Assembly: GCA_003152315.1 (NCBI GenBank) | Contig: PLZV01000026.1 | Coordinates: forward strand, 895 to 55,559 | Reading direction: 5' to 3' | DNA from: Verrucomicrobiota bacterium | Lineage (GTDB): Bacteria; Verrucomicrobiota; Verrucomicrobiia; Palsa-1439 | Length of the DNA stretch: 54,665 nt | In this document: positions 37,129-51,311 of the stretch, in pieces | Layout: the number at the start of each line of letters is the position of its first letter | Numbering within the stretch: the stretch's first letter is position 1 | Position numbers and translations under genes: made by a program | Notes under the pieces: generated by a model | The model's input: the letters and a program-made list of their open reading frames with translations, nothing else | Told to the model about the DNA's origin: nothing | Database searches by the model: none

Positions 37129-37638
37129 ATGATGATGACTAACCCAACCCCACCAAACCTCTTGGGGAGAATCATATCTCTCCGGACAAGCGTGGGAGAC
37201 GGCCTCAACGACGAGGAACTGACCCGCCTTTTGCGTCAGGAAGCCTTGCCGTCCGAAGATGGTTTCACGTTTGTGTCCTTGTGCGAGGGATGCGCGACGT
37301 TCAGTGTTCCGCCTCAAGACCTGGCGAAGTGGTATCCCAAAAAGGGCTGGATCGCGACGGAGAAGGAAGCCATCGCCAGGTCGATTGCGGAGAAATGTGG
37401 GCTTTCGCTCTTTGAGCCTCCCGATGTGCGATTCACTTTCAGACCCTCGGGGTCCGAGGTTCATCATCACTTGGAGATGGCTTATCAGTCGGAAGACATC
37501 GTGATCGCGCACCCTCGGTACTTGAAGATCCGTCTGTTTGGTTTCGCGGACAAACGACCGCTGCCGTTGCCTGGGAATCTCTTGGAACGGCTTGCCGCCC
37601 TGTATCTGGAACACCTTGCCGCTTTGTATCGGATCTGA
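37129..37638 (+). CDS. Hypothetical protein in the efflux island
   Basis: I do not recognise this 169-residue protein. It is predicted soluble and mixed alpha/beta, with two cysteines (LCEGC) near residue 53 and a histidine triplet at about 113-115 (EVHHHLEMA). It sits between the kinase-like gene and the first RND operon on the same strand. The start has three successive ATG codons (37129-37137), preceded by GGAG at a workable distance. The codon use resembles its neighbours, so it is probably real. The function is unknown. Confidence 0.6.
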   Translation: MMMTNPTPPNLLGRIISLRTSVGDGLNDEELTRLLRQEALPSEDGFTFVSLCEGCATFSVPPQDLAKWYPKKGWIATEKEAIARSIAEKCGLSLFEPPDVRFTFRPSGSEVHHHLEMAYQSEDIVIAHPRYLKIRLFGFADKRPLPLPGNLLERLAALYLEHLAALYRI

Positions 37639-37699: not shown

Positions 37700-38839
37700 A
37701 TGAAACACCTATCTATTCTATGCCTCTTGATCGCGGCGAGTACAGTGTCGTGCTCCCGCACACAAGCTCCTCCACCAACCCCGGTGCCGGAAGTGGCGAC
37801 GGTGACGGTTGCCCGGCAGCAGGTCTTGCTGACAACCGAGCTGCCCGGCCGCACGTCTCCGTACCGCATCGCGGAAATCCGGCCCCAGGTCAACGGCCTC
37901 ATTCAGAAACGCCTGTTCACGGAAGGTTCTGACGTCCAGGCCGGCCAGGAACTCTATCAGATCGATCCTGCGCCCTTTCAGGCGGAGCTCGAGAGAGCCA
38001 AGGCCAATCTGCCGTCCCTCCGGTTGAGGGCTGACCGCTACAAGGAAGCACTGGTTGACAAAGCGGTCAGCCAGCAGGACTTCGATGATGCGGATGCCGC
38101 TCTGAAACAGGCCGAAGCAGAATTGGAAACAGCTCGCATCAATCTTAATTACACCCATGTTGTCTCGCCGATCTCCGGTCGCATCGGGACGTCCACAGTA
38201 ACGGATGGCGCCATCGTAACGGCGTACCAACCGGTAGCCCTGGCCACCATTCAGCAACTGGATCCCATCTATGTGGATGTGCCCCAATCCACCGCGGAAC
38301 TGCTGCGATTGGAGCGCCGCCTGCAGGATGGGGGGCTCAGCCGTGACGGGGCGAACCAGAACAAGGTGCAACTCATCCTGGAAGATGGCACGAAGTATCC
38401 TTTCGAGGGCACCCTTCAATTCCGCGACGTCTCGGTGGATCCGACTACTGGATCGGTGATTCTTCGGATGGTCTTTCCGAATCCGAAGGACGTTCTCCTG
38501 CCGGGCATGTTCATCCGGGCAGTGGTGAAAGAAGGCGTCAACAATCAGGCTATTCTGATTCCTCAACAAGCAGTGTCACGCGATCCCAAGGGTAATCCCT
38601 TCGCCTTGATCGTGGATGCCTCCGGCAAAGTCGAGCAACGGATGCTCAACCTTGACCGGGCCATTGGCGACCAATGGCTTGTCTTGTCGGGTCTTGCGTC
38701 CGGCGACCGGGCGATCGCCGAGGGCATGCAAAAAGTCCGGGCCGGCGCTTCGGTGAAAGCGGTTCCCTTTGACACTGACCGGAAACAGGGAGCAGAACCA
38801 CCGGTGAAAGCGGCCCAACAGGCCCCGGCGTCGAACTAA
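37700..38839 (+). CDS. RND efflux periplasmic adaptor (first system)
   Basis: This membrane-fusion lipoprotein of the AcrA/MexA type links an RND pump to its outer-membrane channel. From the ATG at 37700 it has a lipoprotein signal (SILCLLIAASTVSC, cysteine 19), then the hairpin/lipoyl region (RIAEIRPQVNGLIQKRLFTE, GSDVQAGQELYQID), the matching second lipoyl half (NLNYTHVVSPISGRIGTS) and beta-barrel domains to PGMFIRAVVKEG. The length of 379 residues is typical. It is followed after 12 nt by the RND permease. An in-frame start upstream at 37538 overlaps the previous gene and is unlikely. Confidence 0.93.
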   Translation: MKHLSILCLLIAASTVSCSRTQAPPPTPVPEVATVTVARQQVLLTTELPGRTSPYRIAEIRPQVNGLIQKRLFTEGSDVQAGQELYQIDPAPFQAELERAKANLPSLRLRADRYKEALVDKAVSQQDFDDADAALKQAEAELETARINLNYTHVVSPISGRIGTSTVTDGAIVTAYQPVALATIQQLDPIYVDVPQSTAELLRLERRLQDGGLSRDGANQNKVQLILEDGTKYPFEGTLQFRDVSVDPTTGSVILRMVFPNPKDVLLPGMFIRAVVKEGVNNQAILIPQQAVSRDPKGNPFALIVDASGKVEQRMLNLDRAIGDQWLVLSGLASGDRAIAEGMQKVRAGASVKAVPFDTDRKQGAEPPVKAAQQAPASN

Positions 38840-38851
38840 CGGAGACGCGCC

Positions 38852-41800
38852 ATGTTATCGAGATTCTTTCTGAAGCGTCCGGTCTTCGCCTGGGTCATCG
38901 CCATCATCCTGATGGTGGCGGGTGGGCTGGCGATCCACAACCTGCCGATTTCGCAATATCCTCCCATCGCTCCTCCCTCCATTGCCATCACCGCCTTTTA
39001 TCCAGGGGCGTCGGCGGAAACGGTGGAAAACAGCGTGACGCAGATCATCGAGCAGAAGATGACCGGCTTCGACACGATGCTGTACTTGTCCGCCACGAGC
39101 GATTCGTCCGGCAATTCCCGCATTGAGCTGACGTTTGCTCCCGGCACCGATCCAGACCTTGCTTGGGCCCAAGTGCAGAACAAGCTCCAACTCGCCACGG
39201 CGAGCCTGCCGCAGGTGGTGCAGCGCCAGGGAGTGATGGTGAGTAAGTCCACTAAAAACTACCTCTTGGTCGTCGGCCTGATCTCTGTGGATGGGAGCAT
39301 GGATGGGAATGACTTGCGGGACTATGCCCAGTCCAGCTTGGAGAAAGTAATTTCGCGAGTGCCGGGGGTGGGTGAAGTGGACGAATTCGGCAGCCAGTAT
39401 TCGATGCGCATCTGGCTGAATCCCGACAAGCTGACCGAGTATCAGATGACGGTTCAAGATGTAATCATCGGGCTGCAGGCCTACAACGTGGAAGTGTCCG
39501 CAGGGCAGTTCGGCGGAGCGCCAGCGGAGAAAGGCCAGCGCCTGAATGCCTCCATTATTGTCCAGAGTCTGCTCAAGACTCCCGAGGAGTTTGCCGTCAT
39601 CCCCCTCCGCACCAACCCGGATGGATCCATCGTGCGGATCAAGGATGTGGGACGGACAGAACTCGGAACCGAATCGTACGACGTTGAAGTCTTTTTCAAC
39701 GGCAAGCCCGCTGCCGGGATGGCCATCCGACAGGCCGCCGGCGCCAATGCCTTGGACACGGCTAATGCCGTCAGGGCCAAGATGGAAGAGATGAGCCCCT
39801 ACTTTCCTCCCGGCATGAAGGTCATTTATCCCTACGACACCACCCCGTTTGTCAGGGTAGCCATCGGCGAGGTGGTCAAGACTCTGTTCGAGGCGATCCT
39901 GCTCGTTTTCCTGGTGATGTATCTGTTCATGGGAAACATGCGGGCCACGCTGATTCCAACCATTGCCGTGCCGGTGGTTCTCCTGGGGACATTCGCGGTG
40001 CTGGGGCTATTCGGCTTCTCTATCAACATGCTGACCATGTTTGCCATGGTGCTGTCGATCGGCCTCTTGGTAGACGACGCCATTGTCGTGGTGGAGAACG
40101 TGGAACGAATCATGAGCGAGGAAGGGCTTTCGCCCCGGGAAGCCACCGCCAAATCCATGGATCAGATCACCAGCGCCCTGATCGGCATCGGGCTGGTACT
40201 CTCGGCGGTCTTCGGGCCCATGGCGTTCTTTGGCGGTTCGACCGGCGTCATTTACCGGCAGTTTTCCGTGACCATCATCGCCTCCATGCTCCTATCGGTG
40301 GTGGTGGCGTTGATCCTCACGCCGGTCCTCTGCGCCTCGCTCCTCAAGCCGGTGGCCGCGGGACACGAACCAGCCGAAAGTGCGGTCTTCTTCCTGCGCC
40401 CGTTTTTCCTGCGGTTTGACCGCGGCTTTTCCTGGGTCAGAGACCGCTATCTGAGAGTGGTCGGACACACTCTCTCCAGGAAACTACGCTATCTGATTAT
40501 CTACGTTCTGCTCGTCGGAGCGATTGGTTTCCTTTTTTTCCGGCTGCCCACGTCCTACCTCCCGGACGAAGATCAAGGAGTCCTGATCGTTCAAGCCATG
40601 CTCCCGGCCAACTCGACCTTGGAGCAGACCGAAAAGGTCATGGAGGGGGTCAAAGACTATTTTCTGGAGCACGAGAAGGGTGCAGTCGAATCCGTAATGA
40701 CGGCTTCCGGCATCAACCTCTCCGGCCAGGGACAGAATGCGGGTCTGGCCTTCGTCAAGCTGAAGGATTGGAAACTCCGCGAACGCCCGAACCTGAAAGC
40801 CGACGCCGTGGCCGGAAGGGCCATGGGGAAGTTTTCCCAGATCCGCAACGCCATGGTGTTTGCCTTTGCGCCGCCCGCGGTCACTGAACTGGGCATAGCC
40901 AAGGGGTTTGATTTTCAGTTGCTGGATCGCGGCGGTCTGGGCCACGCCAAGCTGGTGGCAGCCCGCAACCAACTCCTCGGCATGGCGGCACAGGACCCGG
41001 TATTGACCAAGGTTCGGCCCAATGGCTTTGAAGACGTGCCCGAATACCGGATTGACGTGGATTGGGAGAAGGCTGGCGCGTTGGGGGTGCCCATCACCTC
41101 GATCCACGATACGATCTCGGCAGCCTTCGGCAGCACATATGTCAATGATTTCATCCAAGGCGGACGTGTGAAGCGGGTATTTGCCCAAGCCGACGCACCC
41201 TACCGCATGTTGCCCAAAGATCTGGAGAAACTCTATGTGCGCAACAACGCGGGCAAGATGGTTCCCTTTTCTTCCTTTGCGTCCGGACACTGGACTTCCG
41301 GTTCTCCGAGGTTGGAGCGCTTCAACGGCTTTTCGTCCATAAACATTTTGGGCGAGCCGGCGGTGGGGAGGAGTTCAGGCGAGGCCATGCAGGCCATGGA
41401 AGGATTCCTGAAGAAGCTTCCCCAAGGGATCGGCTTCGACTGGAACGGGCTTTCCTACCAGGAGCGGATGGCGACTTCCCAGGGACCGATTCTTTACGCC
41501 TTTTCCATCCTCGTCATCTTCCTTTGCGTGGCGGCTTTGTATGAAAGCTGGACGATCCCCTTTGTCAACTTGTTGATGTTGCCGCTGGGTGTATTCGGCG
41601 CCTTGCTGGCGACTTCCTTGCGGGGGCTGTCCAACGATGTTTACTTCCAGATCGGATTCCTTACGACGCTTGGTCTTTCGACCAAGAACGCCATTCTAAT
41701 CATTCAGTTCATCAAAGAGCAGATGCGGCATGGAGTTGGACTGACCGAGGCAACCTTGGGGGCCGTCAGAATACGTTTCCGCCCCGTCATCATGACGTCG

Positions 41801-42031
41801 CTGGCGTTTTTTTTCGGCACTTTGCCGCTGGCCATCGCCTCCGGCGCGGGTGCCGGCGCGATGTGTGCCATTGGAACCGCCGTCACCGGCGGGATGCTCT
41901 CCGCCACATTCATTGATCTGATCTTCATCCCGTTGTTCTTTGTCCTTATATCCCAACTGTTCATGAGAAAGCAGACCCAATCATCCCCTGAGCAATCTCC
42001 CGTTTCCACCAAGACCCCGGAGGTGAGTTGA
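38852..42031 (+). CDS. RND efflux permease, HAE1 (AcrB-like) family (first system)
   Basis: This 1059-residue inner-membrane antiporter exports hydrophobic or amphiphilic compounds using the proton gradient. The N terminus (SRFFLKRPVFAWVIAIILMV) is typical, and the proton-relay residues are present: two aspartates D408-D409 in GLLVDDAIVVVENVERIM and lysine K945 in LSTKNAILIIQF. Two large periplasmic loops and twelve helices can be traced. The substrates cannot be predicted. It lies 12 nt after its adaptor and 1 nt before the outer-membrane factor. Confidence 0.95.
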   Translation: MLSRFFLKRPVFAWVIAIILMVAGGLAIHNLPISQYPPIAPPSIAITAFYPGASAETVENSVTQIIEQKMTGFDTMLYLSATSDSSGNSRIELTFAPGTDPDLAWAQVQNKLQLATASLPQVVQRQGVMVSKSTKNYLLVVGLISVDGSMDGNDLRDYAQSSLEKVISRVPGVGEVDEFGSQYSMRIWLNPDKLTEYQMTVQDVIIGLQAYNVEVSAGQFGGAPAEKGQRLNASIIVQSLLKTPEEFAVIPLRTNPDGSIVRIKDVGRTELGTESYDVEVFFNGKPAAGMAIRQAAGANALDTANAVRAKMEEMSPYFPPGMKVIYPYDTTPFVRVAIGEVVKTLFEAILLVFLVMYLFMGNMRATLIPTIAVPVVLLGTFAVLGLFGFSINMLTMFAMVLSIGLLVDDAIVVVENVERIMSEEGLSPREATAKSMDQITSALIGIGLVLSAVFGPMAFFGGSTGVIYRQFSVTIIASMLLSVVVALILTPVLCASLLKPVAAGHEPAESAVFFLRPFFLRFDRGFSWVRDRYLRVVGHTLSRKLRYLIIYVLLVGAIGFLFFRLPTSYLPDEDQGVLIVQAMLPANSTLEQTEKVMEGVKDYFLEHEKGAVESVMTASGINLSGQGQNAGLAFVKLKDWKLRERPNLKADAVAGRAMGKFSQIRNAMVFAFAPPAVTELGIAKGFDFQLLDRGGLGHAKLVAARNQLLGMAAQDPVLTKVRPNGFEDVPEYRIDVDWEKAGALGVPITSIHDTISAAFGSTYVNDFIQGGRVKRVFAQADAPYRMLPKDLEKLYVRNNAGKMVPFSSFASGHWTSGSPRLERFNGFSSINILGEPAVGRSSGEAMQAMEGFLKKLPQGIGFDWNGLSYQERMATSQGPILYAFSILVIFLCVAALYESWTIPFVNLLMLPLGVFGALLATSLRGLSNDVYFQIGFLTTLGLSTKNAILIIQFIKEQMRHGVGLTEATLGAVRIRFRPVIMTSLAFFFGTLPLAIASGAGAGAMCAIGTAVTGGMLSATFIDLIFIPLFFVLISQLFMRKQTQSSPEQSPVSTKTPEVS

Positions 42032-42032
42032 T

Positions 42033-43499
42033 ATGAAAACTGCCCTGTGCCTCTCTTTGGGGGTGTTCCTTTGCCTGGGCGGCTGCACGATGGCTTCGAA
42101 ATACACCCGGCCGGCAGCTCCAGTCTCCGCCGAATGGCCGACCGGTACAGCTTATGCGGAACCCCGGGTGACGACAACTGCACCACTGGCCCCGGACTTG
42201 AACTGGCAGAAATTCTTCACCGACGAGAAACTTCAACAGGTCATCGGGGCGGCCTTGACGAACAACCGCGATCTGCGGATTGCCGTCTTAAATGTCGAAC
42301 AGGCCCGCGCAATGTACGGCATTCAACGAGCCGAGCTGTTGCCGACAATCAACGCGACAGGTAGCGCGACCAAACAACGGATTCCCGCCAACGTCGAAGG
42401 CTTCCCGGAGCCGATGACGATCGAAAACTACAGCGCCGATCTCGGTGTTGCGTCATGGGAAATCGATTTCTTTGGCCGTATCCGCAGCCTGAAAGATGAG
42501 GCCCTGGAGACTTACCTGGCCACCGAGCAGGCTCGCCGCAGCGCACAGATTTCGCTGATTTCCGCGGTTGCCAACGAGTATCTGACCCTGGCCGCAGATC
42601 GGGAGAATCTCAAACTGGCGGCGACCACCTTCGAAAGCCAGAGGGGCTCCTACGCTTTGGTCAAACGGCGCTATGACCTTGGTCTCGCGACCGAGTTGGA
42701 CCTTCAACGGGCACAATCGCAAATGGATGCCGCACGGGGCGACATCGCCCGTTTCACCCAACTGGTGGCGCAAGATCAGAATGCTTTGAACCTCCTCGCG
42801 GGCTCTCCGGCGCCCAGCGAACTGCCGCCAACGGAGTTGGGGAGCATCACGCCTCCCAAAGAAATTAGACCCGGCCTGCCCTCCGAAGTGCTCCTGCGCC
42901 GGCCAGATATTCTTCAGGCTGAGCATCAGCTAGAAGCGGCCAACGCCGACATCGGGGCCGCCCGTGCGGCATTCTTTCCCCGCATCTCGTTGACGGCCGC
43001 AATTGGCACTTCCAGTAGCGAACTTTCGGGACTCTTCAAGGCAGGTTCCGGAGCGTGGAGCTATGCGCCGCAGATTGTGATGCCGATTTTCGACGCCCGC
43101 ACATGGTCCGCGCACAAGGCCGCCAAGGTGCAACGGGAAATCGCCGTGACCCAATACGAAAAGGCCATTCAGAGCGCCTTCCGGGAAGTGGCCGACACTC
43201 TTGCCGTCTGCGGTACTGTGAACCAGCAGTTGGCAGCGCAACAATCCTACGTCAATGCCGTCGCAGAAGCCTATCGCCTGTCCAATTCCCGTTACGACAA
43301 GGGGATTGACAGCTACTTGAGCGTCCTGGATGCACAACGGTCTCTCTACGCAGGGCAGCAGGGACTCGTCTCCCTGCGCCTGGCAAAACTTGCCAGCCAG
43401 GTGAGGCTTTACGCCGTGCTTGGTGGTGGCTGGCAAACTGAGCAACCGCCTGAGCCTACTGCCAGGTCCACTTCTCGACAAGAGCAGCGAACCAACTGA
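42033..43499 (+). CDS. Outer-membrane efflux lipoprotein, NodT/OprM type (first system)
   Basis: This TolC-family channel of 488 residues forms the outer-membrane part of the first efflux pump. It has a lipoprotein signal (CLSLGVFLCLGGC, cysteine 18 followed by TMASKYTRP), then two repeats of the coiled-coil/beta layout: SWEIDFFGRIRSLKDEALET in the first half and LLRRPDILQAEHQLEAANAD in the second, the family signature. It ends with a low-complexity tail after LGGGWQTEQPPEP. It begins 1 nt after the permease stop and completes a normal three-gene tripartite set. Confidence 0.95.
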   Translation: MKTALCLSLGVFLCLGGCTMASKYTRPAAPVSAEWPTGTAYAEPRVTTTAPLAPDLNWQKFFTDEKLQQVIGAALTNNRDLRIAVLNVEQARAMYGIQRAELLPTINATGSATKQRIPANVEGFPEPMTIENYSADLGVASWEIDFFGRIRSLKDEALETYLATEQARRSAQISLISAVANEYLTLAADRENLKLAATTFESQRGSYALVKRRYDLGLATELDLQRAQSQMDAARGDIARFTQLVAQDQNALNLLAGSPAPSELPPTELGSITPPKEIRPGLPSEVLLRRPDILQAEHQLEAANADIGAARAAFFPRISLTAAIGTSSSELSGLFKAGSGAWSYAPQIVMPIFDARTWSAHKAAKVQREIAVTQYEKAIQSAFREVADTLAVCGTVNQQLAAQQSYVNAVAEAYRLSNSRYDKGIDSYLSVLDAQRSLYAGQQGLVSLRLAKLASQVRLYAVLGGGWQTEQPPEPTARSTSRQEQRTN

Positions 43500-43555
43500 A
43501 CGAAAATGATATCTGGCCAAGAGATGATTGAAGACATGGAGCTATGAACTGCAAC

Positions 43556-44719
43556 ATGAAAATCCGAATAACTGCCTTGCTCGTGGCTTCCATCGCCGCC
43601 ACGCTCATCTCCTGCTCTCGCCCAAAGGCGCCGTCACCACCACCGCCGAAGGTCACTGTGGCCCTGCCCCAGATAATGACCGTGACCAACTGGGACGAGT
43701 ATCCCGGCCACTTGCAGGCCGTGGAGATGGTGGAAACCCGGCCGCGCGTCTCCGGCTACATTGACTCCATCCACTTCACCGATGGCGCGGAGGTAAATGC
43801 CGGGGATTTGCTCTTCGTGATCGATCCCAGGCCTTACCAAGCTGCCGTTGACCAGGCCAAAGCCGAACGCCAGCGCGCCGCGACGCGCTTCGAGTTGACC
43901 AGGAACGACCTCCAGCGCGCGGAGAGTCTGCGGGGCACCAGGGCCATTTCCGAAGAGGAATACGATAGCCGCAGCAACGCCACCCGCGAGGCCGAAGCCG
44001 CCTTGGCCGCCGCCAAGGCCGCGGAAGTTGCTGGTCAACTCAACCTCGATTACACGCGCGTCACGGCCGCGATCAGCGGCAAAATTGGCCGTCGCTTGGT
44101 GACGGTGGGCAATCTGGTGCAGGGCGGGGCTGGCGCCGCCAGCACACTGACGACGATTGTCACGATGGACCCTATTTACTGCTACTTCGACGCGCCTGAA
44201 GAGGCCCTTCCGAGATACAACCACGATGGCCGCGGCCAGAATAGTCCGCTGGCCTGTGAACTTGCCCTGGTGGGAGAGGAAGGCTTCCCCCACAAAGGAC
44301 GCGTGGATTTCTTCGACAACCAGGTGGATGCCAGGACCGGCACCATTCGCGTGCGGGGTGTCTTCGCGAACGTCGACCGGGCCTTGGTGCCGGGAATGTT
44401 CGCCAAGGTTCGCGTCCCGGCCGGCCCGCCCGAGCCGACGCTGTTAATCCCCGACGTGGCGGTCGGCTTCGACCAAAACTACAAGTTCGTCTATGTCGTC
44501 AACTCGACCAACGTCGTCGAAACGCGCATCATCGAACCCGGCCGATCCCTCGGCGCGCTCCGCGCAGTGTTAAAGGGGCTGACACCGCAGGATCGTGTGG
44601 TTGTCAATGGCTTGACCACGTTGCGCCCGGGCACAAGAGTGGAAGCACAGGAAGCTTCCGCCCCGGGAACCCCGTCCGCCGTCGCGGTGGTAACGGCCAA
44701 CTCATCCACGATGCCGTAA
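43556..44719 (+). CDS. RND efflux periplasmic adaptor (second system)
   Basis: A second AcrA/MexE-type adaptor lipoprotein: signal KIRITALLVASIAATLISC, then RPRVSGYIDSIHFTDGAEVN, a coiled-coil hairpin (from AVDQAKAERQRAATRFELTR) and the closing lipoyl half (LNLDYTRVTAAISGKIGRRL). The second half includes VDARTGTIRVRGVFANVDRA and PGMFAKVRVP. It is 387 residues from the ATG at 43556; an ATG at 43544 in the same frame is close to a GGAG but gives a less usual signal sequence. The fused permease gene follows after 31 nt. Confidence 0.92.
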   Translation: MKIRITALLVASIAATLISCSRPKAPSPPPPKVTVALPQIMTVTNWDEYPGHLQAVEMVETRPRVSGYIDSIHFTDGAEVNAGDLLFVIDPRPYQAAVDQAKAERQRAATRFELTRNDLQRAESLRGTRAISEEEYDSRSNATREAEAALAAAKAAEVAGQLNLDYTRVTAAISGKIGRRLVTVGNLVQGGAGAASTLTTIVTMDPIYCYFDAPEEALPRYNHDGRGQNSPLACELALVGEEGFPHKGRVDFFDNQVDARTGTIRVRGVFANVDRALVPGMFAKVRVPAGPPEPTLLIPDVAVGFDQNYKFVYVVNSTNVVETRIIEPGRSLGALRAVLKGLTPQDRVVVNGLTTLRPGTRVEAQEASAPGTPSAVAVVTANSSTMP

Positions 44720-44750: not shown

Positions 44751-47700
44751 GTGAATTTCTCGCATTTCTTCATTCGTCGGCCGATCTTTGCGGCCGTGCT
44801 CTCGATCTTCATCGTGTTGGTGGGCGTGATCGCTTTGTTCGAGCTGCCCATCGCTCAGTATCCGGAAATCACGCCGCCCACCATCTTTGTCTTGGCCAAT
44901 TATCCCGGTGCCAGCGCCAAGACTGTCGCCGATACCGTCGCCACGCCGCTGGAGCAGGAGATCAACGGCGTCGATGACATGCTCTACATGTCCGCCCAAT
45001 GCAGCAGCGACGGCCAACTGCGCCTGGCGGTGACCTTCAAGGTGGGGACCAACCCAAACATGGCGCAGGTGCTCGTTCAGAACCGCGTGGGTGTCGCGGA
45101 GCCGAAGCTGCCCGAGGATGTGCGCCGGCTGGGTGTCACGGTCCGCAAACGCTCCCCGAGCACCGCCATGATTGTCAGCTTGATTTCGCCGACCGGCAAA
45201 TACGATGCCGTGTATCTGAGCAACTATGCCTACCTCCATGTGCAAGATGTGCTGCGGCGGCTGCCGGGCGTGGGGGACACGATTATCTACGGCGCGCGTG
45301 ATTACTCGATGCGCGTCTGGCTGGATCCCAACAAAGTCTCCGCGCGAGATCTGACGGCTGGAGACGTCGCGGCGGCAATTGGCCGGCAGAATGTCGAGGT
45401 GGCCGCCGGCATCTTCGGCCAGGCCCCGCAGCCGTCCGATAATCTGTTCCAACTGACCGTCCAAACCAGGGGACGGCTGGTTACCCCGGAGGAATTTGGC
45501 GACGTTATTTTAAAGGCCGATGCCGCCGGGCAGATTACCCGGCTGCGGGACGTGGCGCGCATCGAACTGGGCGCCAACAATTACAACATCAACAGCCTGG
45601 TGGACGGTCGGCCGGCGGCCGCCATCGCCATCTTCCAACAGCCCGGCTCCAATGCGATCGAGACCTCCGACGCCATTCGCAATGCGATGGAGGAACTCAA
45701 GAAACAATTCCCAGAAGGGCTGGACTACCGCACTGTCTTTGACACCTCGGCGTTCATCCGCGAGTCCATCCGCGGAGTCATCAAGACGCTCATTGAGGCA
45801 ATACTCCTGGTGGTGATCGTGGTGGTACTGTTTCTGCAGAATTGGCGGGCTTCCATCATCCCGCTGGTGGCGGTCCCGGTCTCGCTCGTCGGCACGTTCG
45901 CGGCCATGGCCGCAATGGGCTTCTCCTTGAACAACCTGACCCTGTTCGGCCTGGTGCTGGCCATCGGCATCGTGGTGGACGACGCGATCGTCGTTGTGGA
46001 GAACGTCGAACGCCATCTTGCGGAAGGCCTGACCCCGGTGGAGGCGGCCAACAAGGCGATGAACGAGGTCAGCGGGGCGGTGATTGCGATCGCTCTCGTG
46101 TTGAGCGCGGTGTTCATTCCCACCGCCTTCGTCGCCGGCATCACGGGCAAGTTCTATCAGCAATTCGCGCTGACCGTGGCGGTCTCCACACTGATCTCGG
46201 CATTCAATTCGCTGACGCTCAGCCCGGCGCTGGCCGCGTTGCTGCTGAAACCGCACCATGAGGAAAAGGATTTCATTGGCCAACTGATTCACTATTCCGT
46301 GGGCTGGCTGTTTAAGGGTTTTAACCACGTGTTCGAATCCAGCCGGCGGGGCTACGTCGCGACACTGCGCAACGTCGTCCTCCGCCATTGCGGCGTTAGC
46401 CTGTTGCTGTATGTGGGTTTGATCGGCCTGACCTGGTTGGGGTTCCGTGAAGTGCCCGGCGGCTTCATTCCGCCGCAGGATAAAGGCAACATTTTCTGTT
46501 ACATGCAGCTTCCCGACGGCTCCTCGTTGCAACGTACGGCGGCTGTTAGTGAGCGCGTGACCAAACTGGTTCGGGAGACTCCAGGTGTCAGCGTCGTCCA
46601 GGAACTTCAAGGCCTGTCGCTCGTGAATCTGGGCAACAGCGCCAATGCCAGCACCTTGTACATTCGCCTGGCCCCCTTCGACGAACGGAGCAAGTCTGGC
46701 CTGACCGCCGACGTTATCATGCGTCAGTTGCGTGCCAAGATCGCGCAAGCCAACATTCAGGACGCGTTTATCGGCGTTTTTGGCGCGCCGCCGGTGGACG
46801 GGTTGGGCCAGTTGGGTGGTTTCAAACTCCAGGTGGAAGACCGCGCCAACCTCGGGTCTTCCGCACTGCAGGCGGCGACCCTCAAACTAGCCGGTGCCGC
46901 CATGCAAGACCCCCGCGTGGCTGCGGCCTTGACCACCTTCCGCGCCAGCGTACCCCAGGTGTACCTGGACGTGGACCGTGCCAAAGCCGAATCCATGGGC
47001 GTGCCGTTGAACAACGTTTGGGACACGTTGCAGATCTACCTCGGCTCGCTCTATGTCAATGACTTCACCTACCTCGGCCGCCCATATCACGTCACGCTGC
47101 AGGCTGAGGCCCCGTTCCGTACCAAGCCCGAAGTCGTGAAAAATCTCAAGACCCGCAACACCAATGGGGAAATGGTTCCGTTGGGCACGCTGGTGACAGT
47201 CCGCGACATCACCGCGCCGGTGCTGGTGGGCCATTACAATATGTACCCAACCGCCGAGATCAGCGGCAGCACCGCGCCTGGTGCCAGTTCGGCCGAGGTG
47301 ATCCAACTCATCAATGATCTTGCCGGAAAAGTGCTCCCGCCAGGCATGGCCATCGAGTGGACTGAACTGAACCTGCTCCAAATCCAGGCGGGCAACACAG
47401 CGATTTACATCCTGCCGCTCTGCGTGCTGATGGTCTTCTTGGTCTTGGCCGCGCAATACGAAAGCTGGTCGCTGCCGCTGGCCATCATCCTCGTCGTTCC
47501 CCTGAGTCTGCTTTTCGCCATTCTTGGAGTGTGGGCGAACGGCTTGGACAACAACCTCTTCACCCAGATCGGTCTGGTGGTGCTGATCGGTCTGGCGTGC
47601 AAGAACGCCATTCTGATCGTCGAATTTGCCCGCCAATTGCAGGAAGCCGGCCAAAACCGGTTGGAAGCCGTCATGGAGGCGAGCCGGTTGCGGTTGCGCC

Positions 47701-49403
47701 CGATCTTGATGACCTCCTTGGCATTCGCTTTCGGTGTGCTACCGCTGATGATTGCCAGGGGAGCCGGTGCCGAAATGCGCGTGGCCATCGGCACCGCCGT
47801 CTTCTGGGGCATGTTGGGCGTAACCTTCTTTGGCGTCATGCTGACACCGGTCTTCTACCTGGTCATCCGCCAAATTCTCGAACGCAAGAAGGAGAGAGTC
47901 AGCGGCCAGGCCCTGCCCGGTGCTACGACGCCGGGCGTCACCACCATCTTGCTCCTCGTCGGTCTGACCTCGGTCATGGTCCTCAGTGGGTGCGCGGTTG
48001 GCCCGAATTATCGGTTGCCCGAAACCAAGGTGGACGCCACCTTCGCCAACGCCGGCCAAACCAACCTCACCAGCGGCACTCCCGAAATCACCTGGTGGCG
48101 TGGTTTCCACGACCCGATCTTGGACGGCCTCGTGGACCAGGCCCTCGCCGCCAACCACGACCTGCGCATCGCCACTGCCCGGGTCCGCGAAGCCCGGGCG
48201 CTCCGTACGACCGTCGTACTGGATTTGGCCCCCACCGTCATCGCCGACAGCGGCTACACCAAATCGGTGTCCAGCAAGGACTCCAATCCCACACCGCTCG
48301 CCCGCGACCAGCGCGAACTGTCCCTGTACGACGCCGGCTTCGACGCCACCTGGGAAATTGATCTTTTCGGCCGGGTCCGCCGGTCCGTCGAAGCCAGCAC
48401 GGCAGAAGTCGCCGCGCTGGAAGCTTCCCGCCGCGGCCTGTTGGTGAGCCTGATCGCCGAAGTGGCTCGTAACCACTTCGAACTGCGCGGCCTGCAAAAC
48501 GAGTTGGACGTTGCCCGCAAGAACGCCGCCAACCAGCGCGACACCCTCGACATCACGAGCGAGAAGCTCAAAGCCGGCCGCGGAACGGAGTTGGACGTGG
48601 CACTCGCCCGCACCCAATTCAACGCGACGTTGGCCATCATCCCGCCGCTGGAAGCTGCGATCCAGCGCACCATCTATCGTCTGAGTGTGCTCACCGGCCG
48701 GCAACCCACGGCCCTCGATGCCGAACTCGCCCCGCCCACGCCGTTGCCTGCGCTGCCTGCGCTTGTGAACATCGGCCGCCCAGAGGAACTCCTCCGCCGC
48801 CGCCCGGACATCCGCGTCGCCGAACGCACCCTGGCCGCCGCCACCGCCCGCATCGGCGTCGCCACCGCCGACCTCTTCCCGCGCGTCACTTTCAACGGCC
48901 AGATCGGTTTCGAAGCCAGTGAATTCTCCAGGCTTTCCAAGGCCGGTGGCGACACCTATTCCTTCGGCCCGCGCATCACTTGGGCTGCGTTCGACCTCGG
49001 TCGTGTCCATGCCCGCCTCAAAGCCGCCGATGCCCGGGCCGACGCCGAGCTGGCCGCTTACGAGAAAACCGTCCTGATCGCGCTCGAAGAAACCGAGGGC
49101 GCACTCGTCGAGTTCGATCACGCGCTGGCCCGCCGCGACCATCTTCGGGATTCAGCACAGGCGGCGGAAGAAGCCGTCTCCTTGGCCAACCAGCGTTATG
49201 AGGCTGGTGTGACCGACTTTCTGACCGTGCTCGATGCCCAGCGCACCCTCTTGTCCATTCAGGAAGAACTGGCCCAGAGCGAAACCCGAACTGCCACCAC
49301 GCTGGTGGCGGTCTATAAGGCGTTGGGTGGTGGCTGGGAAATTGAGCCCCGCTCGCCCGCGTCCGCCAAGATGATTCCCGAAAAAAACCCGAAGAGCAAC
49401 TGA
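44751..49403 (+). CDS. Fusion: RND efflux permease with outer-membrane channel lipoprotein
   Basis: One continuous 1550-residue frame encodes an HAE1-type RND permease (about 1-1045; SHFFIRRPIFAAVLSIFIV at the N terminus, D410-D411 in VVDDAIVVVENVERHL, K951 in LACKNAILIVEFARQL) followed directly by a complete NodT/OprM-type channel (from about 1062). At the junction, after RQILERKKERV, comes a hydrophobic stretch (TTILLLVGLTSVMVLSGC) with the lipobox LSGC at C1081, then CAVGPNYRLPE as in free OprM lipoproteins. No stop, start or Shine-Dalgarno suggests separate translation. The channel part keeps both repeats (FDATWEIDLFGRVRRSVEAS; LLRRRPDIRVAERTL). The start is a GTG. Confidence 0.92.
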   Translation: MNFSHFFIRRPIFAAVLSIFIVLVGVIALFELPIAQYPEITPPTIFVLANYPGASAKTVADTVATPLEQEINGVDDMLYMSAQCSSDGQLRLAVTFKVGTNPNMAQVLVQNRVGVAEPKLPEDVRRLGVTVRKRSPSTAMIVSLISPTGKYDAVYLSNYAYLHVQDVLRRLPGVGDTIIYGARDYSMRVWLDPNKVSARDLTAGDVAAAIGRQNVEVAAGIFGQAPQPSDNLFQLTVQTRGRLVTPEEFGDVILKADAAGQITRLRDVARIELGANNYNINSLVDGRPAAAIAIFQQPGSNAIETSDAIRNAMEELKKQFPEGLDYRTVFDTSAFIRESIRGVIKTLIEAILLVVIVVVLFLQNWRASIIPLVAVPVSLVGTFAAMAAMGFSLNNLTLFGLVLAIGIVVDDAIVVVENVERHLAEGLTPVEAANKAMNEVSGAVIAIALVLSAVFIPTAFVAGITGKFYQQFALTVAVSTLISAFNSLTLSPALAALLLKPHHEEKDFIGQLIHYSVGWLFKGFNHVFESSRRGYVATLRNVVLRHCGVSLLLYVGLIGLTWLGFREVPGGFIPPQDKGNIFCYMQLPDGSSLQRTAAVSERVTKLVRETPGVSVVQELQGLSLVNLGNSANASTLYIRLAPFDERSKSGLTADVIMRQLRAKIAQANIQDAFIGVFGAPPVDGLGQLGGFKLQVEDRANLGSSALQAATLKLAGAAMQDPRVAAALTTFRASVPQVYLDVDRAKAESMGVPLNNVWDTLQIYLGSLYVNDFTYLGRPYHVTLQAEAPFRTKPEVVKNLKTRNTNGEMVPLGTLVTVRDITAPVLVGHYNMYPTAEISGSTAPGASSAEVIQLINDLAGKVLPPGMAIEWTELNLLQIQAGNTAIYILPLCVLMVFLVLAAQYESWSLPLAIILVVPLSLLFAILGVWANGLDNNLFTQIGLVVLIGLACKNAILIVEFARQLQEAGQNRLEAVMEASRLRLRPILMTSLAFAFGVLPLMIARGAGAEMRVAIGTAVFWGMLGVTFFGVMLTPVFYLVIRQILERKKERVSGQALPGATTPGVTTILLLVGLTSVMVLSGCAVGPNYRLPETKVDATFANAGQTNLTSGTPEITWWRGFHDPILDGLVDQALAANHDLRIATARVREARALRTTVVLDLAPTVIADSGYTKSVSSKDSNPTPLARDQRELSLYDAGFDATWEIDLFGRVRRSVEASTAEVAALEASRRGLLVSLIAEVARNHFELRGLQNELDVARKNAANQRDTLDITSEKLKAGRGTELDVALARTQFNATLAIIPPLEAAIQRTIYRLSVLTGRQPTALDAELAPPTPLPALPALVNIGRPEELLRRRPDIRVAERTLAAATARIGVATADLFPRVTFNGQIGFEASEFSRLSKAGGDTYSFGPRITWAAFDLGRVHARLKAADARADAELAAYEKTVLIALEETEGALVEFDHALARRDHLRDSAQAAEEAVSLANQRYEAGVTDFLTVLDAQRTLLSIQEELAQSETRTATTLVAVYKALGGGWEIEPRSPASAKMIPEKNPKSN

Positions 49404-49521: not shown

Positions 49522-50133
49522 ATGAAAGCTATTGCCATAAATGGTAGCCCGCGTAAGGGCGGGAACACTGAGATTCTTTTGAAAAAGGCGCTTGCGCCGC
49601 TGGCGGCCTCCGGTTGGGAAACCGAGTTCGTCCAGATCGGCGGAGCACCCATCCGCGGATGCAAGGCCTGTTACCAGTGTTTCAAGAAGAAGGATTCCCG
49701 GTGCAGCCAGAAGGATGATCTTTTCAATCAATGCTTCGAGAAGATGGTCGCAGCCGATGCGATCATCCTCGGATCACCGACGTACTTCACCGACGTGAGC
49801 GCTGAAATGAAGGCGCTCCTGGATCGCGCAGGGCTCGTGGCGTTGGCCAACGGCGGATTGTTCCGCGGGAAAATCGGAGCCGCCGTGGTGGCGGTCAGAC
49901 GCGGCGGCGGCACGCATGCCTTTGACACGATGAACCACATGTTCCTTATGTCCGGCGTCATCGTGCCAGGATCCACGTATTGGAACCTCGGATTCGGTTT
50001 GGACAAGGGCGCGGTGGCCAAGGACGACGAGGCTTCACGCAACATGAAGGATCTGGGTCAAACCATCGCCTGGTTGGGCGCGGCGATCCATCAACACGCC
50101 GGGAGCCGCCCCGCCGCCGAGGTACGCGAATGA
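49522..50133 (+). CDS. NADPH-dependent FMN reductase / iron-sulfur flavoprotein-like
   Basis: This 203-residue flavodoxin-fold protein starts KAIAINGSPRKGGNTEILLK, the FMN phosphate-binding loop, followed by a cysteine cluster (GCKACYQCFKKKDSRC) that in related proteins holds an iron-sulfur cluster, and then GSPTYFTDVSAEMKALLDR. It probably transfers electrons from NAD(P)H through FMN to an acceptor. It overlaps the aldo/keto reductase start by 4 nt (ATGA), and the pair forms the end of the island's coding part. The substrate is unknown. Confidence 0.88.
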   Translation: MKAIAINGSPRKGGNTEILLKKALAPLAASGWETEFVQIGGAPIRGCKACYQCFKKKDSRCSQKDDLFNQCFEKMVAADAIILGSPTYFTDVSAEMKALLDRAGLVALANGGLFRGKIGAAVVAVRRGGGTHAFDTMNHMFLMSGVIVPGSTYWNLGFGLDKGAVAKDDEASRNMKDLGQTIAWLGAAIHQHAGSRPAAEVRE

Positions 50134-51311
50134 ATTTTCTCAAACTCCACCCGCGAACTGGTGCCATGCAGTTTCGCAAATTTGGCAAACTGGATTGGAA
50201 CGCTTCGGTTCTGGGCTTTGGCTGTATGCGCCTGCCTACTGTAGACGGAGACCCCCACAGCCCCAATATCGATGAAGCGGAAGCTGTGCGCATGATCCGC
50301 CACGCCCTGGATCGGGGCGTGAACTATTTCGACACCGCTTACGTCTATCACGAAGGGCATAGCGAGACCGTTCTCGGCAAGGCACTGCGCGGTCATCGGG
50401 ACCAGTTGAGAATAGCCACCAAGTCCCCGGTGTGGTTGATCCAACAGGAAGCCGATTTTGACCGGATGTTGAACGAGCAACTGGGCCGGCTCCAGACTGA
50501 TTACATTGATTTCTATCTGCTCCACGCTCTGGGTAAAAAGCGCTGGAGCGAATCCGTCCTGAAATACAAGCTCCTCGAAAAGGCCGAGGCCGCGATTCGC
50601 GACGGACGCATCCGCCACCTGGGTTTCTCGTTCCACGACGATTACGAGAGCTTCCCTGACATAATCAACGGCTACGATCGCTGGACGTTCTGCCAGATTC
50701 AGTACAACTACATGGACACGGAAAATCAGGCGGGCACTCAGGGATTGAAGCTCGCCGCCGCAAACGGTTTGGCCGTCGTGATCATGGAGCCGCTGCTCGG
50801 CGGCAGGCTGGCGCATCCACCGTCGTCTATTCGCCAGGTGATCGAACGCTCCAGCGTGAAGCGATCCCCGACGGACTGGGCGTTGCAATGGCTTTGGAAC
50901 CAGCCCGAAGTGTCGGTTGTGTTAAGTGGCATGAGCAACATGGACCAGGTGAAAGCCAACCTGGATTCCGCGTCTCACGCTCGCAGCCATTCGTTTCAGG
51001 CGGTGGACCTGAAGCTGATCGCGGACTTGCAGCAAAAGTACCGGGAACGAGCCGCTATTCCTTGCACCAAGTGCAACTACTGTATGCCCTGCCCAAACGG
51101 AGTGAACATCCCGGCCAATTTTGAAATCTACAACGAGGCGTTTCTCCACGAAGACATTCCGGGCGCGCGCTTCAAGTATCAGATTTTTGTGCCGGAAGCA
51201 ACGCGGGCCAGTGTTTGCATTGCCTGCCACGACTGTGAAGACCGTTGTCCCCAGAAGATCCCGATCAACGAATGGATGCCCAAGGTTGACGCGCTACTCG
51301 GCGCGGCGTGA
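50130..51311 (+). CDS. Aldo/keto reductase with C-terminal iron-sulfur domain
   Basis: The N-terminal part is an aldo/keto reductase barrel (KFGKLDWNASVLGFGCMRLP, NYFDTAYVYHEGHSETVLGK with the catalytic tyrosine, later VSVVLSGMSNMDQVK). The C terminus carries two cysteine clusters of ferredoxin type (CTKCNYCMPCPNGVNIP and CIACHDCEDRCPQKIPI), which define the iron-sulfur subfamily. The GAGGT before 50130 and the ATGA overlap support that ATG (393 residues); a later ATG at 50166 starts at the conserved core. A short hairpin spans the stop codon (51302-51323). The substrate is unknown. Confidence 0.9.
   Translation: MNFLKLHPRTGAMQFRKFGKLDWNASVLGFGCMRLPTVDGDPHSPNIDEAEAVRMIRHALDRGVNYFDTAYVYHEGHSETVLGKALRGHRDQLRIATKSPVWLIQQEADFDRMLNEQLGRLQTDYIDFYLLHALGKKRWSESVLKYKLLEKAEAAIRDGRIRHLGFSFHDDYESFPDIINGYDRWTFCQIQYNYMDTENQAGTQGLKLAAANGLAVVIMEPLLGGRLAHPPSSIRQVIERSSVKRSPTDWALQWLWNQPEVSVVLSGMSNMDQVKANLDSASHARSHSFQAVDLKLIADLQQKYRERAAIPCTKCNYCMPCPNGVNIPANFEIYNEAFLHEDIPGARFKYQIFVPEATRASVCIACHDCEDRCPQKIPINEWMPKVDALLGAA

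Follow-up and report, generated by a model that had tools for sequence, protein, structure and literature searches.

Tripartite pumps play a central part in drug resistance; as a rule, each subunit is produced on its own, and the subunits are then sorted to different membranes. In the MexEF-OprN and OqxAB pumps, the permease and the channel are the products of separate genes. RND permeases end in the cytoplasm, and channels of the OprM/OprN type carry a lipidated Cys1 at the outer membrane; OprN and OprM are free proteins, each with its own start codon and an N-terminal signal peptide. Two subunits of a membrane complex made as one chain are known from FbcH of Bradyrhizobium, in which the cytochrome b and c1 subunits are separated at an internal signal peptide. 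There, the cut is made by signal peptidase I, and both products are found in the inner membrane.

The window analysed here, a stretch of 54,665 nucleotides from a Verrucomicrobiota bacterium (contig PLZV01000026.1), contains on its forward strand a gene (44751–49403) in which an HAE1 RND permease and a NodT/OprN-type outer-membrane channel share a single frame. Frame inspection revealed a GTG start and 1550 codons without interruption, so the original prediction of both proteins in one chain of 1550 residues was borne out, the frame being open throughout and both domains full length. The permease part (aa 1–1044, 44751–47882, + strand), which runs through TM12, matched NF000282 over aa 4–1040 with 1381.6 bits (curated cut-off 1250) and TIGR00915 with 1158.3 bits (cut-off 940), as expected of a full-length HAE1 RND permease. 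Pfam ACR_tran matched aa 3–1040, the VDDA and CKNA proton-relay motifs are legible in the sequence, and the best PDB matches (7wlv, 8yr0, 8zxs, 7cz9) also describe an OqxB/MexF-like protein. The channel part matched TIGR01845 (outer_NodT) over aa 1074–1528, corresponding to model positions 3–460 of 460, with 370.4 bits against a cut-off of 210, which places it among the NodT-type outer-membrane factors. It had been described as OprM-like; it is indeed an outer-membrane channel, but OprN, and not OprM, is its nearest relative (44% identity, TM-score 0.90 to 5iuy/5azo). An AlphaFold model of the piece from TM12 to the end (mean pLDDT 80.8, TM-score 0.90 to 5iuy) consisted of TM12, an unstructured linker, a separate helix on the hydrophobic core and, from the lipobox Cys on, an OprN fold, which forms the mature channel domain (aa 1081–1550, 47991–49400, + strand); a mature domain that starts at the lipobox Cys, and the fold itself, are shared with OprN and OprM. 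Each domain is an ordinary representative of a known family, and their order, permease followed by channel, may well be on record in protein databases. A description of a natural RND-channel fusion was not found in the open literature searched, and such fusions are not mentioned in the searched parts of a 2021 review (PMC8277102) and of PMC4446572.

The fused gene lies in an operon, 31 nt behind the end of a gene for a periplasmic adaptor (MFP; 43544–44719, + strand), a MexE/OqxA-like lipoprotein whose best NCBIfam models, NF045904 and NF000272, scored under their curated cut-offs. Adaptor, permease and channel all match MexEF-OprN and OqxAB best among models and structures, although the equivalog cut-offs were not reached (OqxB, 1218.9 vs. 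2200 bits; MexE, 327.7 vs. 714; OqxA, 315.6 vs. 835); judged by these scores, the system is OqxAB-like and not an orthologue. It would work as those two pumps do, but differs from both in that an internal signal peptide joins permease and channel within a single chain. Upstream, as had been noted originally, is a first RND system with separate permease and channel genes, MFP1-RND1-OMF1 (37700–43499, + strand), complete and unfused, with RND1 at 38852–42031 and OMF1, which has a start with a strong Shine–Dalgarno sequence (SD), at 42033–43499. An ORF of 169 aa without Pfam match is found directly upstream of this first system (37129–37635); downstream of the fused gene, on the same strand, are genes for an NADPH-dependent FMN reductase and for an aldo/keto reductase that carries a 4Fe-4S domain (49522–51308).

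At the junction, TM12 is followed by a basic cytoplasmic linker (aa 1045–1062, RKKERVSGQALPGATTPG, 47883–47936, + strand), predicted to be disordered (pLDDT about 41–47) and proposed here as the n-region of a signal peptide. Next comes the hydrophobic h-region (aa 1063–1078, 47937–47984), with a Kyte–Doolittle mean of 2.55 over 11 residues, which AlphaFold modelled as a helix (residues 47–62 of the modelled piece). The hydrophobic segment ends, as originally reported, in the lipobox LSGC (aa 1078–1081, 47982–47993), which fits a PROSITE PS51257-style pattern, a simple one that also matches once elsewhere in these permeases; the mature channel is predicted to begin with Cys1081 (codon 47991–47993). 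Basic n-region, hydrophobic core and lipobox Cys of a lipoprotein are all present, not at an N terminus but within the chain (aa 1045–1081) and with no usable start codon before them. The gene resembles fbcH in that an internal signal peptide lies between two membrane-complex subunits of one chain; it differs in that one product would be destined for the outer membrane, with signal peptidase II as the probable cutting enzyme.

The same design was found in other genomes. Searches of other assemblies detected orthologous fusions of near-identical layout with 83% (same genus) as well as 69% and 63% identity; more remote fusions shared 40–49%. HAE1 permease-channel fusions amounted to 34 non-redundant cases in Verrucomicrobiota, including the window gene, and two in Acidobacteriota (247 genomes sampled). 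Within a phylum-wide sample of 388 genomes, many of the sampled genomes being draft metagenome bins, a fusion is found in at least 12 genomes other than that of the window, and two of the fusion-bearing genomes (G118 and G221) are single contigs. No HAE1 fusion was present among the matches listed for 398 Pseudomonadota genomes (E up to 1e-280); ten long Pseudomonadota frames (1485–2157 aa) that were inspected turned out to be upstream out-of-gene extensions, with the channel ORF separate or absent, and a 1568 aa frame from the Burkholderiales genome G428 was likewise an upstream extension. Two further observations were made in the course of these searches. Genomes G013, G020, and G052 carry two HAE1-like permease genes side by side in tandem, resembling an MdtBC-type hetero-pump. 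In addition, the channel N termini of L102, from a bin labelled Verrucomicrobia, and L110, from one labelled Acidobacteria, are letter-for-letter identical, pointing to either misbinning or very recent transfer.

Outside the HAE1 branch, six CzcA-type permeases of Chitinophaga (L184–L189, 1455–1507 aa) similarly run on in frame past a basic tail, a hydrophobic core and an AxA/Q site into a C-terminal extension, which, judged by eye, we take to be of the TolC family. These CzcA/CusA proteins differ from the window gene in belonging to the HME branch and to Bacteroidota, in a mature channel start without the conserved lipoprotein Cys, and in their separate origin; judged from sequence, the heavy-metal pumps of Chitinophaga look like an independent instance of the fused design in another RND branch.

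The order basic stretch, hydrophobic core, cleavage site was conserved at the join in 36 of 36 HAE1 fusions. All 34 from Verrucomicrobiota have a net-positive stretch with 3–7 K/R and then a hydrophobic core (Kyte–Doolittle 2.1–3.3), followed by a cleavage-like site that is a lipobox Cys after G or A in 24 of them, including the non-canonical MNGC of L039 and GGGC of L042, and AxA in the other 10. As for Acidobacteriota, one fusion has STGC and the other an Ala-rich AxA site. The search for further HAE1-channel chains recommended with the original prediction was successful (36 in all, with the window gene counted), but the lipobox, whose constancy had been put in question there, is not present in every one. 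Between members of clades A and C (described below), identity was 20–24% in the linker, 34–42% in the h-region, 58–63% in the mature channel, and 100% at the Cys. Asp at position +2, the inner-membrane retention residue of E. coli, was found in none of the fused channels. Unfused relatives have lipobox signal peptides near clade A and mostly AxA ones near clade B (with L061, a lipobox, as exception); since the cleavage type matches that of the unfused relatives, it appears that the channel gene absorbed in each fusion retained its signal peptide but lost its start codon, with the tail of the permease taken as n-region.

A tree of the permease parts separated the fusions into clade A (the window gene, Limisphaera, and relatives), clade B (Pedosphaera-like fusions), and clade C (other Verrucomicrobiota families, outside the window's class). 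A single fused sequence, L118, grouped with sequences related to the first, unfused system of the window, and both Acidobacteriota fusions were placed apart from all of these. A single origin was rejected by the AU test (p 3e-55 for all fused sequences together), and so were the combinations A + B (6e-65), A + C (9e-6), and A + L118 (1e-25). On this evidence, it seems safe to say that the fusion arose at least four times, and probably six or more, the exact number being uncertain because the trees were quick ones under a simple model (LG+G4) and because names were given to the groups once the tree had been seen. Reversals may have occurred too. Inside clade A, L040 (6056–6275), from a low-coverage metagenome bin, has a stop codon and, in the same frame, a channel ORF of its own; this is likely a natural re-split of the fused gene. 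L016 and L017, also inside clade A, consist of the permease only, the fetched stretch containing no channel. Their relatives L157 and L158, nested in the same clade, have a stop directly past the basic tail and again no channel within the fetched stretch; these permeases have probably lost the channel part.

The reading that we favour, with a probability of roughly 0.8, is that the gene encodes an RND-channel polyprotein for which we propose cleavage by signal peptidase II, or by signal peptidase I in the AxA clade, with release of an OprN-like lipoprotein. A single chain of a MexEF-OprN/OqxAB-type tripartite pump would be translated, its permease would be inserted co-translationally and, as in other RND permeases, TM12 would end in the cytoplasm. 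Because the permease ends there, a further hydrophobic helix would be oriented N-in/C-out, as a signal peptide is, with its cleavage site in the periplasm. The basic tail would serve as n-region, and the next helix would enter the Sec translocon in this orientation, so that the channel is exported. Lipidation of Cys1081 by Lgt would come next, and then a cut by signal peptidase II directly ahead of this residue, this timing being part of the proposal; the window's genome contains both lspA and lgt. After the cut, the permease would keep one extra helix in the inner membrane, and the OprN-like lipoprotein would go to the outer membrane, whereas in AxA-clade fusions signal peptidase I would make the cut instead. 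Originally, a cut by signal peptidase II had been proposed alongside a channel inserted while still tethered; the order at the join (36 of 36), the invariant Cys and the existence of an AxA clade argue for the cut.

If the chain stayed uncut, the hydrophobic helix would be a thirteenth transmembrane segment, and the channel would reach the outer membrane still tethered and form a covalent pump-channel trimer with its permease. RND permeases and channels are both trimers, so that a 3:3 complex would be possible in principle, and the linker is modelled as flexible. However, such a tether needs neither an invariant Cys nor AxA, yet both are kept in place while their neighbours diverge; since these conserved cleavage residues would be left unexplained, a permanent tether is less likely, and we regard it as improbable. 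It would, moreover, hold the residue before the Cys at the inner membrane, against the outer-membrane position of the lipidated Cys1 in OprM and OprN. The re-split relative L040 is nested within clade A, and the tether cannot be essential in that lineage because the channel is again a separate ORF there. Draft metagenome bins are common among the genomes, and an assembly artefact, a missed stop or a decaying gene might be suspected for this reason; orthologous fusions in independent assemblies, the single-contig genomes G118 and G221 among them, and the full length and conservation of both domains led us to reject this, and a chance origin with it. Most likely, the built-in signal peptide has been retained to let the cell split the chain into its two parts.

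The channel could also be made on its own from an internal start, the fused frame being incidental. Near the junction of the window gene, in-frame ATG, GTG, or TTG codons are limited to two, a TTG within the hydrophobic core, which has no charge and a weak SD, and an ATG that precedes the lipobox by two codons, in agreement with the original remark that no start codon with a ribosome site is seen there. We scanned the Verrucomicrobiota fusions for in-frame ATG, GTG, or TTG codons that leave the whole hydrophobic core, scoring SD duplexes of -4.5 kcal/mol or better. No usable internal start was found in nine of the 34, the window gene included, and a start with both following K/R and SD was found in none (0/34), but in the same scan free channels had a K/R start in 33 of 39 cases and an SD as well in 18 of 39. 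Many Verrucomicrobiota starts lack an SD, so that its absence alone says little; besides, an ATG with following K/R is present at the TM12 exit in 14 of the 34 fusions, and in the Acidobacteriota fusion L213 (genome G827) the signal peptide is preceded by an in-frame ATG that has a good SD. The N-terminal part of L213 may be frameshifted. The other Acidobacteriota fusion, L214, has no start codon ahead of its signal peptide. With nine fusions offering no ATG, GTG, or TTG that would leave a full signal peptide, and with the tail of the permease itself as n-region, internal initiation cannot, as far as these frames tell, be the general explanation, and we consider the idea very unlikely.

The recurrent polyprotein offers a test case of whether a lipobox in the middle of a chain, after 12 transmembrane helices, is processed or not. 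A natural fusion of this kind bears on how the outer-membrane channel leaves the inner membrane and on the matching of pump and channel at birth, and the natural swap between lipobox and AxA makes signal peptidases I and II comparable within one architecture. The benefit of a 1:1 supply of pump and channel, mentioned in the original prediction, is a conjecture. A more tentative suggestion, and a rather doubtful one, is that fusion does more than secure supply: the pump trimer would receive, in cis and still uncut, the channel made with it, the peptidase cut being an assembly step that matches co-born partners; if it were true, the repeated independent origin of the fusion with either peptidase would point to a general strategy of RND pump assembly.
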